Shown: one piece after another, positions 3,142 to 18,200 of the stretch
How the letters are laid out: each line of letters begins with the position of its first letter
Position numbering within the stretch: the first letter of the stretch is position 1
From: a virus
Reading direction: 5' to 3' (one strand)
Virus record (IMG/VR): IMGVR_UViG_3300050821_007732
Span: 1-26,501 of that record
DNA: 26,501 nt
Notes under the pieces: model-generated
The model's input: only the letters and a program-made list of their open reading frames with translations
Told to the model about the DNA's origin: nothing
The model's database searches: none
Program-made: the position numbers and the translations under genes

Positions 3142-3564
3142 TTACGTCCCCAATGTTTCTGGTTTGGGTTGATCAGAATAAAAAGACTGGTGGCCGAACA
3201 TGCCACAAAAACGCATTGTCGCCGCCCAGCTTGGCGGAGCAGGCATTGAGTTAGCATAATAGAACAATGCTCCGCCAGTCGGGTCTATATTACTATCCAT
3301 GACGACTTGCATTACGCTCATCATGTGGGAAAGCGTTGCGTCATCGTCTGGAAGATCGCAGGCATAGGCAAAATTAGGGTCGCTTGGCACATACCATCCG
3401 CTGAATTGTGCGCGCCACAGACAGACGGAGGCCAGAGATTTCCCCCAGCGGTCAGATTCCAGACGGTTTTTGATGACGTAGGCCACCGCCTGCTGGCCAT
3501 CCAGCGGTTCGCCGCGGGCTTCCTGGCAAAGAGTACGGGCTGCGGTTTCGAGCGCCCAGCTCAT
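3142..3564 (-). CDS. SleB/CwlJ-type cell wall hydrolase (endolysin)
   Basis: The N-terminus carries the Hydrolase_2 (SleB/CwlJ) signature: ARTLCQEARGEPLDGQQAVAYVIKNRL at residues 9-35 (described here by its key residues Glu15 and Glu19), then SLASVCLWRAQFSGW and DPTGGALFYYANSM near residues 95-108. This family cuts peptidoglycan glycan strands, and Glu15 of the QEARGE motif fits the catalytic acid. At 140 residues it is a single-domain enzyme without signal peptide, so release would depend on the holin downstream. The start has a strong ribosome binding site (GGGAGG) inside the end of the O-antigen ligase-like gene, with a 4-base ATGA overlap. SleB-type lysins are common in phages of alphaproteobacteria. 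Family assignment is firm; the exact bond cleaved is not visible. Confidence 0.9.
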   Translation of the reverse strand: MSWALETAARTLCQEARGEPLDGQQAVAYVIKNRLESDRWGKSLASVCLWRAQFSGWYVPSDPNFAYACDLPDDDATLSHMMSVMQVVMDSNIDPTGGALFYYANSMPAPPSWAATMRFCGMFGHQSFYSDQPKPETLGT

Positions 3565-4661
3565 GCTATCCTCCCGGCCCAGCCGAGCGCTGTAAGCATA
3601 GGGATAATTGTGGTTATGCAGTCAGGCTCGACCATGAGCATTACCAGATAGGCGGCGAATATCGCCAGCGCGAAAGGTTTGCCCATCACGCTTTTGAATG
3701 CGTCGGCCAGAAACGCCAGATATGCGGCCAAGCCAAGAACCCCCGCGTCGGCCAGCGCCTGCAGTGCGAAATTATGAGAGCGGTCCCAATTCTCAGGCAT
3801 ACACAGCACATGCAAATTTTCCTGCCCGTATCCCAGCCATGGATGCTTCATGATCACGGAAAGTTCGTTCTGATAGCAGCCGAAACGGTAGGACAAATCG
3901 GCAAACATCGCCATGTGCCACGAACTTCCGATCTGCACCGCGAGCGCCAAGCCCAGCATCAGGATGGCCCATTTCAACTTGCCGGGGATAAGGCATATTG
4001 CCCCAATCATAGCCCCGGCCATTGCCGATCGGCTTCCTGTCATCAGCAGAACAGGAATTTGAAAAAGCAGCGCGGCAAGCCAAAGTTTTGAATCCTTCGC
4101 TGCCCAGAGCGTGAACAGGATCGTCAGCGCCAGATAGTCACCAAAGAACACCGGACTTCCCATCAGGCCATAGGCGCGCGGGACGGGATAATAGATCACT
4201 AGGAAATGCAGGCTCTGCAAAAGGCTGGCGAGAGAGACGACAACTCCCGATATCGCCCAGCCGCGCAGCAGCCACGTCCAGAATTTCTCGCCGCGCGGCA
4301 ATATCGTCAAAGCCACGAAATAAGCCAGATATGACGCCATGGCGACAAAGCCGTCAATCCGCATGTCTTCGCCCCAGAACGCCGTTTGTCTGTTCACAGC
4401 GACAGAATCGGCCAATGCGAGCGCGGCCACGAAGGCGCCATAGAGCCAAACCGTCGCGGGCATAGCGCGAAGATTGAACAGCAAGCACACGCACCAGCCC
4501 ATGCAGAGCCAGCGGAATATTTCCGTTTTGCCGGAAGCGTATGGGCTAAATGTTCCTGGCCATACCACCAGCGTCACCAACGGAACTGTCAGCAATGCAG
4601 CAGAGCCGATCCAGCGGGCCGCACCATCTATGTTGATCCGAGGAAGCGCAATCGCGGTCAT
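3561..4661 (-). CDS. O-antigen ligase/polymerase-like (Wzy_C/WaaL) membrane protein encoded in the phage late operon
   Basis: This 366-residue polytopic protein has roughly ten hydrophobic segments and the ordered motifs of the Wzy_C/O-antigen ligase superfamily: RAYGLMGSPVFFGDYLAL (162-179), TGSRSAMAG (208-216), a periplasmic loop with HPWLGYGQENL (273-283) and SHNFALQALADAGVLGLAAY (295-314) containing His296. Enzymes of this superfamily polymerise or transfer undecaprenyl-linked glycans on the periplasmic face of the inner membrane. Length is near the family's usual 370-450, slightly short. It overlaps the beta-helix gene before it and the endolysin gene after it by 4 bases each, so it belongs to the same transcript. 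In a phage it may alter host surface glycan (receptor masking or serotype change). It could act as ligase, polymerase or protein O-glycosylase; motifs do not separate these. Confidence 0.85.
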   Translation of the reverse strand: MTAIALPRINIDGAARWIGSAALLTVPLVTLVVWPGTFSPYASGKTEIFRWLCMGWCVCLLFNLRAMPATVWLYGAFVAALALADSVAVNRQTAFWGEDMRIDGFVAMASYLAYFVALTILPRGEKFWTWLLRGWAISGVVVSLASLLQSLHFLVIYYPVPRAYGLMGSPVFFGDYLALTILFTLWAAKDSKLWLAALLFQIPVLLMTGSRSAMAGAMIGAICLIPGKLKWAILMLGLALAVQIGSSWHMAMFADLSYRFGCYQNELSVIMKHPWLGYGQENLHVLCMPENWDRSHNFALQALADAGVLGLAAYLAFLADAFKSVMGKPFALAIFAAYLVMLMVEPDCITTIIPMLTALGWAGRIA

Positions 4662-6445
4662 GGCCCAAGAGCACCAATATTGACAGGATTAGTGCGTGCC
4701 GCCCCATTGGGATATGCTGGCTGCGAGAATGATGCGGTAGGTAATGTACCGTTGGCTATCGCCGGACTTCCCGCTATCGGATTAAAATTCCATAGCGGCG
4801 TTGAAAGATCAGCAGCCGTAAAAACGCCGCTATTCGCCGTGCTTGTTATCGTGTTCGTCGCACCACCGCCAAGAGCATAATTTCCAGCCGCACTATAAAC
4901 ATGCGCGGTACCAGAAACGGTCGCATCTATTGTGCCGTTCAGCAATATAAGATTGTGATCGATGGTCATGCTATTTGTGACCACATCCACAGTGCCATCA
5001 ATAGTAATGTTAGCGCAGATATTATTGCGTAGGGTGTCGCCGCTAGAGTTTGGCACGCCAGACTGATGTGCTACGCCAAGAATACTGCATCCTCCTCCAT
5101 CATTGGCATTCTGGACATATTTGAATGTGGTGTTGTTCTCGATTGTGCTGTTGGTTAGGCTATAAAACGCGATTGGACCATTCGTTGAACAGTTCGCGAC
5201 GATGTTATTCGTGATGACTGCGCCGTCGATCTGGTCATCAAACGAATCGATACCTTGCGCACCATTCATGTTGCATTGCTGATATAAAGGCAGTTGTGCG
5301 GCCGGCACGGTAAGTTCGTTGCCATAATTACCATCTATGACATCGCCCGTATCCTTGCAGAATGTTGCCGGACTGCAATTCCCAGCCTGATGCTGGATAT
5401 TGTCATTATGGTTGCCGTCAGCGACCGGAAACTGATTGGTGATTGTATTGCGCGCGATTTCGATATTTGCGCCAGCCCAATCAATTCCATCATCTGGCAG
5501 GATGTTGAGAATATTATCAGCCGCTAAAATATTATTCCCGACAAGCGACATCATGGTTTTGTCGCCGCCGCCTGCAGGATTGGCTCCTACAGCCTGAATA
5601 GTATTGTGCGTAATGGAAATGCAGAACACATTGGATGAAGCGTTCTGCCCGCTGATCGCAATAGCATCAGAGCGAGAATTTGCGTTCCACTGGGCGGCAT
5701 TCCATGTCAACGCCGTTGTCTTGTCGGTGGATTGGAAAGTGTTGTTATAAAGAATAATTTGGGTTGAGTTTGGTGAACCGTCGCTTTCGACGCCTATAAA
5801 TGGGGCATTACCATTCTGAAGTGCTTGGAACGTCAGATTTTCCCAAAGGATATTTTTGACATCCTTCAGGCGGTTCCAGCCCGCCAGAATGGGAGACGAT
5901 CCAGCCGCAGGTTGAACGCGAACGAAACCTGAGAACTGCGTTTGAAGCCCGGGACTGGCACCGCCAAAATCGGTCGGATATCCGGGATACGCTCCTCCGC
6001 TGTCCTGCACGTCGAGTGTATCGCCCGCAACCATAACGGTCCCGGCGCCGAGTGCTTTTGTAAATGATTTCCATGGGCTTCCGATGGTCCCAGGATTAGA
6101 ATCGTTGCCACCGGCATTGATGTAATATGTCGTTCCAGTCCAAGTTGACGGGGCTGGCGCGCACCCGGGATAAACCTGCGGGGAATTTGAGATCACGCTG
6201 CCGCCAGAAAATAGCGCAGCCATCTTCACGCCATCCCGAGCGATGGGCGGAGGATTTGGAATAGCAACAATCACATTCGATAGCATCGCCTCGATCAACT
6301 GAGGCTGGACCTCTACCGGGTCATGCTGGATCGCATGATAAATCTCTGGTGTAGGCGTATTGGCTTGCGGCGCGACATTGATATTGACGCAGGCATATGT
6401 AAACAATGCAGTGACAAAAGCGGCGGCTTTGAAAATACTATTCAA
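4658..6445 (-). CDS. Right-handed parallel beta-helix protein with N-terminal export signal (pectate-lyase-like fold)
   Basis: The 595-residue product begins with a Lys, a hydrophobic run and TYAC (Cys19), which looks like a Sec signal or weak lipobox. A Pro-rich linker follows (to about residue 100). From TTYYINAGGNDSNPGTIGSP (105-124) on it has the typical opening of secreted parallel beta-helix proteins, then many N-rich turns such as NNTFQS, HNTIQA, RNTITN, NNIVAN, ENNTTF, RNNICAN. Such folds form polysaccharide lyases, glycosidases and tailspikes; catalytic residues cannot be pointed out. At least eight Cys residues suit an exported protein. The start is TTG: an SD (GGAG) lies seven bases upstream inside the preceding gene, whose TGA it overlaps by 4 bases, and no ATG occurs before the signal. 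Roles to consider are a tailspike/depolymerase or an envelope-attached enzyme. Confidence 0.8.
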   Translation of the reverse strand: MNSIFKAAAFVTALFTYACVNINVAPQANTPTPEIYHAIQHDPVEVQPQLIEAMLSNVIVAIPNPPPIARDGVKMAALFSGGSVISNSPQVYPGCAPAPSTWTGTTYYINAGGNDSNPGTIGSPWKSFTKALGAGTVMVAGDTLDVQDSGGAYPGYPTDFGGASPGLQTQFSGFVRVQPAAGSSPILAGWNRLKDVKNILWENLTFQALQNGNAPFIGVESDGSPNSTQIILYNNTFQSTDKTTALTWNAAQWNANSRSDAIAISGQNASSNVFCISITHNTIQAVGANPAGGGDKTMMSLVGNNILAADNILNILPDDGIDWAGANIEIARNTITNQFPVADGNHNDNIQHQAGNCSPATFCKDTGDVIDGNYGNELTVPAAQLPLYQQCNMNGAQGIDSFDDQIDGAVITNNIVANCSTNGPIAFYSLTNSTIENNTTFKYVQNANDGGGCSILGVAHQSGVPNSSGDTLRNNICANITIDGTVDVVTNSMTIDHNLILLNGTIDATVSGTAHVYSAAGNYALGGGATNTITSTANSGVFTAADLSTPLWNFNPIAGSPAIANGTLPTASFSQPAYPNGAARTNPVNIGALGP

Positions 6446-7173
6446 TGGCCAGCTCCAAGTCCCATTGTCATCCCTCCGAAGGATGAACTACCACCAGCAG
6501 GAGAGCCACCAAAAGCGGCGGCATTCATACCCCATGCACCGCTGATGCAGTTGCTTATTGGCGTAACAGATACAGATGTTATTTGATATTCCGTGAAGAA
6601 ATATGGCAAACCGCTCTTGGAATTTACATTTCCGGAAAATCCTGCGCCAGCCGATTGTCCAGCGCCATCCGCCTCCACGATGGCGACAACTATCCCTGGA
6701 TTTGGCGGGGTAAGGGCTGCGGTCTGCGGCGCTGTGCTTGAGCCTGTGGCCTGCTGCGTCAAACCATGGTTATCCACTGTCCCCATGCCGCTAAATTGAT
6801 AAACAGCCACCGTAAAATAATTTGTCGTTGTGCCAGAGAAGGTTGCCGTCACGACATTAGCGGCATTTCCGATGATGTTGTAGCAATAGAAAAGTCCGAG
6901 ATAATGACCGCCTCGATTTAAATCAGTACCAATTTGAGTATAAATGTTTCCCGCCGTATCGGTGACGGTTATGGCGTTAACGATATCCCTGCTGACCATT
7001 ACCACCAGAAAATTTCCGGTCGTATGATTCGCCGCATCTGCTGATTGGCTATTGGTCGCTGAAACCAAGCCGCCATCGGTATAATTAATAAACGCAATAG
7101 CGGCCAGAGCCGGCTCGACCGATAAGATTATCGCCGCAGACGAAAGCAGCACAAGTAATCTGCGCCTATTCAT
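6442..7173 (-). CDS. Exported beta-sandwich protein with Sec signal peptide, 243 aa
   Basis: From the ATG at 7173 the protein opens with MNRRRLLVLL, a hydrophobic core and a cleavage site after VEPALA, a clear signal peptide. An alternative GTG at 7182 overlaps the previous stop (GTGA) and adds three residues. The mature part is rich in Thr, Asn, Gly and Val. It contains the pattern TDTAGNIYTQIG ... LGLFYCYNIIGNAANVVTAT ... FTVAVYQFSG, recalling small immunoglobulin-like or beta-sandwich modules of secreted proteins and phage receptor-binding proteins. It ends in a Gly/Ser-rich tail (GGSSSFGGMTMGLGAG). Cys residues are consistent with the periplasm or outside. It is coupled by overlap to the beta-helix gene. 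Function is unknown; an adhesin-like or virion-decorating role fits. Confidence 0.75.
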   Translation of the reverse strand: MNRRRLLVLLSSAAIILSVEPALAAIAFINYTDGGLVSATNSQSADAANHTTGNFLVVMVSRDIVNAITVTDTAGNIYTQIGTDLNRGGHYLGLFYCYNIIGNAANVVTATFSGTTTNYFTVAVYQFSGMGTVDNHGLTQQATGSSTAPQTAALTPPNPGIVVAIVEADGAGQSAGAGFSGNVNSKSGLPYFFTEYQITSVSVTPISNCISGAWGMNAAAFGGSPAGGSSSFGGMTMGLGAGH

Positions 7174-7178
7174 AGTGA

Positions 7179-8093
7179 TCACTTATAGAACACATTGATG
7201 ATATATTCGTCGGCAGTCGGAAGGCCTGTGCCTCCATAGACGGTTCCAACACATTGCGTGATCGCCGTTGTGAACGGAAGGCCAAATACATCTTCTCTGA
7301 TAATACCGGCACCAGAAGTGGAATTTGCCGGGATCATCGTATGATATTTGGCTGTGGCTGTAGCAGCACAAGATACAGAACCTTGGGCGGCATCATAATA
7401 GTTCACATAGAGAATGGTGGCGTTGTTGTTCACCATCTCTATGCCATAAAGCTGCCCAGGAGAGGCATCGATTGCCAACGCAGTATTATTGGCTGGAACA
7501 TATTGGCTTGAAATTGACAAGCCACCTGCCGTCGATGCCACATTGTCAATGCGCAAACTGCGATTATTTGGATCAAGGCTCATATAGCCCTGAGTACCAT
7601 TCGTTAACGCGCTGGCGGACGTTTCTGCCACGGCCGCCACGCCTGAATATTGCAGGCCAGTCTTGGATGTTCCATCCGTCGAGCCACTAATAACCGCAAG
7701 TGAAGTGGCCGTAACTGGAATACCGCCAGAAGTCGAAGCCCCATTAACCTGCGTTATATTGACTGGTAGACCCGTTCCAAGTCCCACATAACTTCCGCCG
7801 CCAGTTGTCGAATCAAAGACCGGCTGTACATAGGCCGCGCCAGCTTTCGAGGCCGTAGGGACTGCTGTAGCCGTGGCGATTGTGGGTAGCGTTGAAGTGA
7901 TAGTTACGGCGCTATTGCCTCCAGCGCCAGAACCGCCAGTCGTAGGGACATTACAATTCGCGGTTCCAACAGCGCAGAGAGTAAAGCTGCCATCTGCATT
8001 CGTAGACTGGACAATCACCAAGGATTGCGTCTGCGCGAAGGCTCCGCTTGATCCTAAAAGGATGGCTGCAAATGCAGCAAGAAATCTTTTCAT
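7179..8093 (-). CDS. Exported Gly/Thr/Ser-rich protein with Sec signal peptide, 304 aa
   Basis: The N-terminus MKRFLAAFAAILLGSSGAFA followed by QTQS is a textbook Sec signal peptide with AFA cleavage. The mature chain is low in charge and rich in Gly, Thr, Ser, Ala and Val. It has a Cys pair near the mature N-terminus (LCAVGTANC) and another in the C-terminal domain (SCAAT ... TQCVG). The last 90 residues (PGQLYGIEMVNNNATILYVN, then IPANSTSGAG and YIINVFYK) match a beta-rich domain I recall from phage structural clusters. A strong SD (TAGGAGAATATC-ATG) is fused to the fibre gene's stop. It heads a run of coupled genes (beta-sandwich, beta-helix, O-antigen ligase-like). A virion appendage protein with a signal peptide is unusual; an envelope protein is the alternative. 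Confidence 0.76.
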   Translation of the reverse strand: MKRFLAAFAAILLGSSGAFAQTQSLVIVQSTNADGSFTLCAVGTANCNVPTTGGSGAGGNSAVTITSTLPTIATATAVPTASKAGAAYVQPVFDSTTGGGSYVGLGTGLPVNITQVNGASTSGGIPVTATSLAVISGSTDGTSKTGLQYSGVAAVAETSASALTNGTQGYMSLDPNNRSLRIDNVASTAGGLSISSQYVPANNTALAIDASPGQLYGIEMVNNNATILYVNYYDAAQGSVSCAATATAKYHTMIPANSTSGAGIIREDVFGLPFTTAITQCVGTVYGGTGLPTADEYIINVFYK

Positions 8094-8102
8094 GATATTC
8101 TC

Positions 8103-8795
8103 CTAAACCGTTGGATAGAACACGCCTGAGAAACGGGTAAATCCATTACCCCCTATGACGCTATTACCTTTGCTACCCCCCTGGATGCGGATATTGAGTT
8201 GCGCTGTCTCAGATAGCGCAAGAGGGATCATATCGGAAATCGAGAATGATAATTGATTTGATGCCGATAGATTGACCGTATTCTGGTCATTGCTAATATA
8301 AATTCTCCCCCCACTTGTCTCTATGGCGCAATATGCTTCCGTGAAGCTGTTTGTCAGACTTCCGACTTGAACTCTCCCATTCACAAGAAGTTGTCCGGCA
8401 ACTGGTGCGGTGAATTTAGAACTCACAAGACTAAATCCACTTCCTACATTGAAATCGGCAGTATCGAATGTAACTTGATAATCCGTCCCATCGCCTGTCA
8501 CATTATTTTGCGTGGTTGAATTATAGACGGCAAATCTTATCCGCTGATATTGCTGATATGTGACGTAATCCCCGGTTGTCGTGGCAACAGCAGCTCCGGT
8601 ATGCTTATACCCGCCCATTGGAAGATTGGCAGTAGCAACGCCCTGACCATCTCGGGTTAGGCAGTTTCCAAAGCCATTCCCGGCCATATCCGTTTCCTGC
8701 GTATCCATGCGGGACGCAGTAATAGGAATTGCGTTCGCGGCATCGTTCTCCCAATTATAGGTGAGGTTAAATGTGCCTGTGCCGTTCCAACCCAT
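8103..8795 (-). CDS. Tail fibre protein with C1q-like C-terminal domain
   Basis: The N-terminal part contains RDGQGVATANLPMGGYKHTG and TTGDYVTYQQ (about residues 48-82), a recurrent linker pattern in phage tail fibres (xxNLPMGGxxxTGxAxxxxxGDYVxY). From about residue 88 the sequence FAVYNSTTQNNVTGDGTDYQ and onward, with alternating strands and SGFSLVSSKFTAPVAGQLLV, resembles the C1q/TNF-like jelly-roll that trimerises and often forms fibre tips. There is no signal peptide, in contrast to the next genes. Start context is good (AGGAAAAAGTCAA-ATG). It follows the ejection-protein genes and precedes the exported proteins, the usual place for receptor-binding genes. It probably attaches to the short tail and contacts the host surface. 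At 230 residues it is short and may be an adaptor or side fibre. Confidence 0.82.
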   Translation of the reverse strand: MGWNGTGTFNLTYNWENDAANAIPITASRMDTQETDMAGNGFGNCLTRDGQGVATANLPMGGYKHTGAAVATTTGDYVTYQQYQRIRFAVYNSTTQNNVTGDGTDYQVTFDTADFNVGSGFSLVSSKFTAPVAGQLLVNGRVQVGSLTNSFTEAYCAIETSGGRIYISNDQNTVNLSASNQLSFSISDMIPLALSETAQLNIRIQGGSKGNSVIGGNGFTRFSGVFYPTV

Positions 8796-17378: not shown

Positions 17379-18200
17379 TTAGTTCATCTGTTTTTCATGC
17401 GCCGCAGCGAACTCATCAGCTACAGCACGAAGCAGCCCATTTCCATAGACCGTCAATTCGCAGCCTTCGGAAAGTAGTTTTGGAATGATTACTACAAATT
17501 CCTCTGCTTGCGCGATCATCTGAATGGGGGAGCGGAAGTTCTTACCGCCGCACATCACGTCCAGAATTTCATGGTCATGGTCCTGCTCATAAGCGTGAAG
17601 CTCATTGCCATCCATGGAACAATCCAGGCCAAATAACCGAAAGCGGCGGTAACCGAGTTGATAGGCAAGTCCAAGCGCCCGCGTTCCTATAGTGGTCCCA
17701 CCCCCGACAAATGGCGGCCTAAGCTCGGGAAAAGCCGTTTCCAGCCCGACAATATAAGGTGTCCAGAGAATGCAATTTGGCGCTTTATCATGGACAGATG
17801 GATCGCATTGGCTGGAATAGAACCGAACCATGGGGATTTCCGGCTTTACCATATTGGCCACGCCGGGAAGGCTATCAAGCAGAACATGGCAATCCGGGGT
17901 GATGCCCTTATCCGACAAATAAGCCGGGACATTATTGACCGCGAACAGGATATCGCCCGAGGCTTGGCAAAACTTCATAAAGCAAAGGTCTGATTTCAGG
18001 GATGGCCCTCCCCCAGCAATGATAGCTGTTCCATCATGTGGTTCAAAACTCTCAAGCCAGCGAGCATCAGTGCGAGCCATGGCCGCCTTGAGATTATGTT
18101 CCAATGTCTCATAGGATATATTGGCGATAAATTCGAGGTCTCTAACCTCAAAATCCTTGTCTTCTGACCTGTTTTCGGGATCGCGAATGAACTTCAGCAT
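17379..18200 (-). CDS. DUF115/MptE-like family protein in the head module
   Basis: The 273-residue protein shows the DUF115 (6-hydroxymethylpterin pyrophosphokinase MptE-like, also in motility accessory factors) arrangement: AIIAGGGPSLKSDL (59-72), ILFAVNNVPAYL (84-95), TPDCHVLLDS (101-110), GGGTTIGTRALGLAYQLGY (166-184) and RFRLFGLDCSM (187-197). The GxGPSL loop binds a phosphate-containing ligand in this superfamily; bacterial members are linked to glycan modification of flagella, and phage members have no settled role. It starts 11 bases after an intrinsic terminator's stem, with a short AGGA box, and is followed by the AT-hook protein. It may modify a virion or host glycan. The family is recognised with good confidence, its activity is not. 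Confidence 0.8.
   Translation of the reverse strand: MLKFIRDPENRSEDKDFEVRDLEFIANISYETLEHNLKAAMARTDARWLESFEPHDGTAIIAGGGPSLKSDLCFMKFCQASGDILFAVNNVPAYLSDKGITPDCHVLLDSLPGVANMVKPEIPMVRFYSSQCDPSVHDKAPNCILWTPYIVGLETAFPELRPPFVGGGTTIGTRALGLAYQLGYRRFRLFGLDCSMDGNELHAYEQDHDHEILDVMCGGKNFRSPIQMIAQAEEFVVIIPKLLSEGCELTVYGNGLLRAVADEFAAAHEKQMN

Follow-up and report, generated by a model that had tools for sequence, protein, structure and literature searches.

The 26,501-base IMG/VR soil-phage record IMGVR_UViG_3300050821_007732 (hereafter the window, a genome fragment read from its DNA alone) contains minus-strand head, portal, terminase and tail genes and, directly behind a fibre gene (FIB), three consecutive genes at 4658-8093 whose predicted products, P304, P243 and P595, begin with export-type signal sequences. 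We interpret this trio, together with the adjoining gene for an O-antigen polymerase/ligase-like membrane protein (WZY), as a putative cassette of fibre-type domains that would be expressed late and exported to the host envelope, a reading to which we give an even chance of being right. Its best-supported step is that the three proteins are very probably exported through Sec and oxidised in the periplasm. A preliminary description of this DNA had placed three signal-bearing genes one after another behind the fibre gene; the coordinates and strand proved exact, and the three N-termini stand out against the background established below, that of P595 less firmly.

Signal sequences were identified with an in-house rule combining a positively charged n-region, a hydrophobic core and an AxA site or lipobox, which recovered 7/8 known E. 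coli Sec substrates and returned 1-2% false positives on shuffled mature sequence. As a background set we used 80 related phages gathered via the major head protein, in which 10 of the 768 open reading frames of at least 180 amino acids (aa) passed the rule; some of these are evident false or chance passes, and three of the ten form a single trio in a close relative, contig L082, at a different site. Given this background and the rate on shuffled sequence, three adjacent signals lie far beyond chance expectation. Furthermore, none of the head and tail structural genes of the window outside the trio encodes a positive n-region with an equally hydrophobic core. The N-terminus of P304 reads MKRFLAAFAAILLGSSGAFA, followed by Q at the predicted cut, and that of P243, from the ATG at 7173, reads MNRRRLLVLLSSAAIILSVEPALA, followed by A (a GTG 9 nt upstream would yield a product of 246 aa). 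Both have a positive n-region, a hydrophobic h-region and an AxA cut near residue 20-25, as scored by the rule with its controls, and are textbook predicted signals of the Sec/signal peptidase I (SPase I) type. The N-terminus of P595, MNSIFKAAAFVTALFTYA followed by C, is read from a TTG start that overlaps the preceding stop.

To place P304 and P243 among known folds, as the preliminary description had suggested, structures were predicted with AlphaFold and compared with known structures. The last ~115 residues of P304 are modelled as a jelly roll with moderate confidence (predicted local distance difference test, pLDDT, about 60-85 over residues 191-304); outside this domain the model holds nothing reliable (mean pLDDT 48). 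P243 is modelled as a beta sandwich (mean pLDDT 58) whose first strand begins at residue 26, just past the signal. The best fold matches in the PDB (Z 7.6 for the P304 C-terminal domain and 8.1 for P243) fall inside the background of the search tool and are therefore not taken to assign a known function to either protein. Searches by sequence were equally sparing: the trio had no match in Pfam, NCBIfam or PADLOC and nothing useful in the PDB, tblastn of each protein against 50,697 phage records returned no relatives, nor did P304 and alignment A3 against genome contigs, and in PHROGs P304 showed a weak match to phrog_11809 only. P595, which additionally had no match in PHROGs or plasmids, carries Asn-ladder motifs that make it beta-helix-like to the eye; the proposed beta-helix thus stands on these motifs, with no family or structure match to join them.

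Relatives of the P304 C-terminal domain were found in contigs L115, L116, L117, L118, L119, L120, L130 and L136 and in Caulobacter phage S2B. Those of L115, L116, L117, L118 and L130, which are unrelated phages, also carry signals, whereas the proteins of S2B (gp4), L120 and L136 are signal-less and, as structural-region phage proteins, identify a fibre or minor-tail domain. Among these relatives AxA cut sites recur although the sequences have diverged, and the signals sit exactly at domain boundaries. The P243 family comprises at least ten phage contigs, in structural regions, and most of its members begin at the mature N-terminus, that is at the domain itself, without a signal; the exception is L130. 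The two genes occur as an ordered pair with both signals in the window and in L130, and in L136 as the same ordered pair with neither signal and one gene between. Because the domains of both proteins occur signal-less elsewhere and P243 homologues start at the mature end, the predicted signal is best described as a precise added module, one that follows the protein and not the domain. In L115, L116 and L118 the P304-type genes lie near additional signal-bearing glycine-rich or fibre-like genes; the glycine-rich proteins of L116 and the fibre proteins of L118 had no relatives in a search of phages. In two of these contigs (L115:3594-10387 and L116:7782-14043) the space separating head from tail genes is occupied by a cluster of four to five genes with signals, several of them with glycine-rich domains (PF21722).

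The cysteine content of the trio, which had been read as suited to an oxidising compartment, points the same way. P304, P243 and P595 contain 4, 2 and 9 cysteines, and when mature residues were counted and presumed lipid cysteines excluded, the number was even in 18/18 signal-bearing proteins versus 203 even and 255 odd (44% even) among cysteine-containing controls. For these groups, which were picked during the analysis and not preregistered, the Fisher test gives p = 7e-7, or 1.5e-4 when 11 proteins are taken as independent, several of the 18 being related. This parity lends strong support to disulfides that would form outside the cytoplasm. An out-of-sample parity check was mixed with probable signal-arrest-release (SAR) endolysins and is not used as proof. 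Within the P304 domain, Cys242 and Cys281 are both present in 5 proteins and both missing in L118, which has a signal, and in L120 and S2B, which have none.

The gene that follows the trio, its start overlapping the end of P595, encodes a protein matching PF04932 (52.1 bits versus a cut-off of 31.7) with at least seven hydrophobic segments and intact GSR209 and SHN295 motifs, retaining the Arg and His. WZY thereby combines the domain, the multiple transmembrane segments and the Arg/His motifs of Wzy/WaaL O-antigen polymerases and ligases; it is likened to Wzy-beta, for which essential Arg and His residues are described (PMC4815439), by motif and not by position. On the minus strand FIB, whose first ~58-96 aa are conserved with N-terminal matches in most relatives, is followed by P304 after a gap of 9 bases, and from P304 to the endolysin gene (HYD) every start overlaps or almost touches the preceding stop. 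Recognisable ribosome sites precede P304 (a strong TAGGAG ahead of the ATG), P595 and HYD, and the block is apparently co-translated with the late genes. Neither a Wzy_C match nor a trio behind the fibre gene was found in 33 related phage records. Since fibre and endolysin genes abut in the relative L084, overlapping by four bases, the four genes from P304 to WZY look like a clean insertion between them (Table 1).

Table 1. Features of the inserted block and its flanking genes in the window
Feature	Positions	Strand	Evidence
FIB, 230-aa fibre-like structural protein without signal peptide	8103..8795	-	phrog_13989, 1.2e-27 (N-terminus)
P304, predicted exported protein with C-terminal jelly-roll domain	7179..8093	-	sequence, homologues, model
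P304 predicted Sec/SPase I signal peptide, predicted cut AFA/Q after residue 20	8034..8093	-	sequence and rule score
Jelly roll modelled at the C-terminus of P304 (residues 189-304), with the Cys242/Cys281 pair	7182..7529	-	AlphaFold 2 (AF2) model, alignment A3
P243, beta-sandwich protein predicted to be exported; a GTG at 7182 could also serve as start	6442..7173	-	homologues, model
P243 predicted Sec/SPase I signal peptide, predicted cut ALA/A after residue 24	7102..7173	-	sequence, rule score, signal-less homologues
P595, large protein read from TTG, its Asn-ladder sequence resembling a right-handed beta-helix	4658..6445	-	look of the sequence
P595 hydrophobic signal ending TYA/C, perhaps that of a lipoprotein (Cys19) or else cut by SPase I	6392..6445	-	old PS00013 lipobox rule
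WZY, membrane protein resembling O-antigen polymerases/ligases; closes the inserted block	3561..4661	-	PF04932, 7.9e-14
HYD, cell-wall hydrolase/endolysin	3142..3564	-	PF07486, 2.3e-15; phrog_938

Two further genes of the window may be recorded here. Within the head/tail module, 17379-18200 on the minus strand encodes an MptE-like/DUF115 protein (PF01973, 1.1e-17); proteins of sugar transfer and of flagellin glycosylation belong to this group. In the lysis region, an internal start at 2103-2432 on the minus strand would give a small protein with a lipobox-like LISC that overlaps another small gene, as in Rz1-type spanins.

The preliminary description had offered three roles for the trio, namely envelope change, released adhesin or depolymerase, and tail parts added outside the cytoplasm. 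Envelope change has the best support, given that a Wzy_C O-antigen polymerase/ligase-like protein is encoded next to the trio, and the other two have less. The sequence itself shows the genes and their overlaps, N-termini that resemble signals, the insertion as compared with L084, the homology of the domains and the cysteine parity; from these we infer that export, disulfide formation, timing, location and effect would be connected as follows. An accessory cassette of P304, P243, P595 and WZY would have been inserted between the fibre and endolysin genes and be translated together with the late genes, P304 and P243 being fibre or minor-tail-type beta domains fused to a cleavable Sec signal and P595 a signal-bearing, beta-helix-like protein that may be a lipoprotein. 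The trio would be made late, be exported by the host Sec machinery, gain its disulfides in the periplasm, and then remain in or on the envelope or be released at lysis, while WZY would polymerise or ligate O-antigen at the periplasmic face. Their most likely joint effect would be to alter or hide the surface of the host and so to deny binding to superinfecting phages, or to the progeny of the phage itself on debris.

A second IMG/VR contig, L002, carries the same trio at 99-100% identity, with P595 only in part. In favour of the cassette interpretation, L082 (86% identity in the major capsid protein) has a signal-bearing trio of like composition at another place, between the portal and scaffold genes. 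Its first protein is homologous to P304 (38% identity over 107 residues, 3e-11), its second is beta-rich and 260 aa long, and its third, of 482 aa, is beta-helix-like and has a TTG start. At this variable portal-scaffold site other relatives hold signal-less beta-rich cargo; in a minority (L003, L008, L019, L023, L045 and others) the cargo is LamG-, SGNH- or S74-like by eye, and cargo proteins often end in a GGH or GGM motif and an acidic tail.

Several observations weigh against an exported envelope cassette. P243 and P595 have no significant BLAST match to the second and third genes of L082, so the two trios are alike in make-up and homologous for P304 only, and L002 may derive from the same site as the window. 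No member of the trio was recognised by PADLOC. P595 is the weakest of the three: its TYAC satisfies the old PS00013 lipobox rule, yet is a non-canonical lipobox, and its fold was judged by the look of the sequence, so that both its putative signal and its putative fold are weak inferences. Finally, the L118 relative of the P304 domain has a signal yet lacks the Cys242/Cys281 pair, its two cysteines lying in the N-terminal part, and L118 encodes a signal-bearing 1486-aa fibre-like protein at the expected tail fibre position. Given this position, a virion role fits better than an envelope role there.

It is the L118 gene that lends some probability to a virion role more generally, and the strongest competing account, although improbable, is that the trio consists of virion appendages that mature in the periplasm (disulfides, trimerisation) and attach at lysis. 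Its domains do match virion proteins elsewhere, the viral structure matches of P243 (BFVD) including minor tail proteins and the P304 C-terminal domain being signal-less in S2B and L120, and in L018 (4442-5929) a signal peptide is joined to a C-terminal Peptidase_S74 intramolecular chaperone (PF13884, 4.4e-15), which is typical of tailspikes. However, the window already has a signal-less fibre gene in FIB, the trio shows no domain for attachment to the virion, and the cassette ends with a Wzy-like gene. To our knowledge no tailed phage adds fibres after export, and among literature titles and abstracts no direct report of signal peptides on tail fibres was found. We regard as doubtful the broader proposal that in some tailed phages fibre-type proteins are Sec-exported, disulfide-bonded and folded in the periplasm and join particles only at lysis, with the P304/P243 pair becoming exported or cytoplasmic as signals are acquired or lost.

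Similarly improbable is release of the proteins as enzymes or adhesins, with P595, and perhaps its partners, acting as a polysaccharide-degrading beta-helix enzyme freed at lysis to clear capsule or biofilm. The beta-helix-like sequence, the signal and the late position near the endolysin gene are consistent with this, and XepA of prophage PBSX provides a precedent, being a late protein that is exported while the phage develops and is missing from its particles (PMC6834076; PDB 6i56). On the other hand, P595 matches no lyase or hydrolase family, no catalytic residues were identified in it, and a lipoprotein anchor would oppose free release.

Lambda Lom and Bor, both of which carry export signals, provide the pattern for a less probable account, in which the genes are lysogenic-conversion morons expressed in the lysogen and altering host adhesion or fitness. 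Both are envelope proteins from the late region, and lom sits immediately to the right of tail gene J (PMC12656833). Moreover, the nearest phage-record relative of the portal is a Bradyrhizobium phage whose record opens within a tRNA gene and contains helix-turn-helix (repressor-like) genes, so the wider group may include temperate phages; but the gene overlaps between P304 and the endolysin suggest translation together with late genes, and the window, a fragment, holds no proof of lysogeny. That the hydrophobic N-termini are uncleaved parts of virion proteins or chance, as a rule-based prediction would allow, is very unlikely given the ~1% background, the recurrence of AxA sites in diverged relatives, the cysteine parity and the signal-less homologues that begin at the mature end.

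Several known systems resemble the cassette in part. Lom and Bor have different folds, and here two fibre/tail-type domains have gained a signal and three such genes stand in a row with a Wzy-like gene. Phages of Porphyromonas gingivalis (Nixviridae) encode Sec-signal proteins of unknown function with Gln at +1 after the cut, as predicted for P304 and several L115 and L116 proteins; their hosts differ, and the available part of that report describes no domain identity, cassette structure or cysteine pattern (PMC10367356). XepA superposes on the P243 model with Z 7.0 over 93 residues (rmsd, root-mean-square deviation, 2.9), a Z within the common beta-sandwich range. The serotype-converting unit of phage D3 shares with the window a Wzy_C-type O-antigen polymerase, Wzy-beta, and consists of three serotype-conversion genes, with no exported fibre-type trio described in the abstract of its account (PMC4815439). 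Export, described beforehand as abnormal for phage proteins, is unusual for this clade, but secreted late phage proteins are already known. The P304 C-terminal domain also matches the jelly-roll subunits, with disulfides, of the Bacillus endospore appendage Ena1B (7a02; Z 7.5, 93 residues, rmsd 2.7), with a Z tied with many unrelated jelly rolls and no sequence similarity found. An Ena-like pilus is unsupported beyond the common jelly roll, there being no Pfam match for P304 and no sign of fibre polymerisation.

Phage proteins that leave the cytoplasm are usually seen as single oddities, whereas here a signal-bearing set of fibre/tail-type domains recurs in unrelated phages with a matching cysteine signature. 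Signal peptides combined with cysteine parity offer a simple screen of metagenomes for more cases. If export is true, these phages would deploy their own binding domains as secreted surface masks, or would finish some virion parts outside the cytoplasm.

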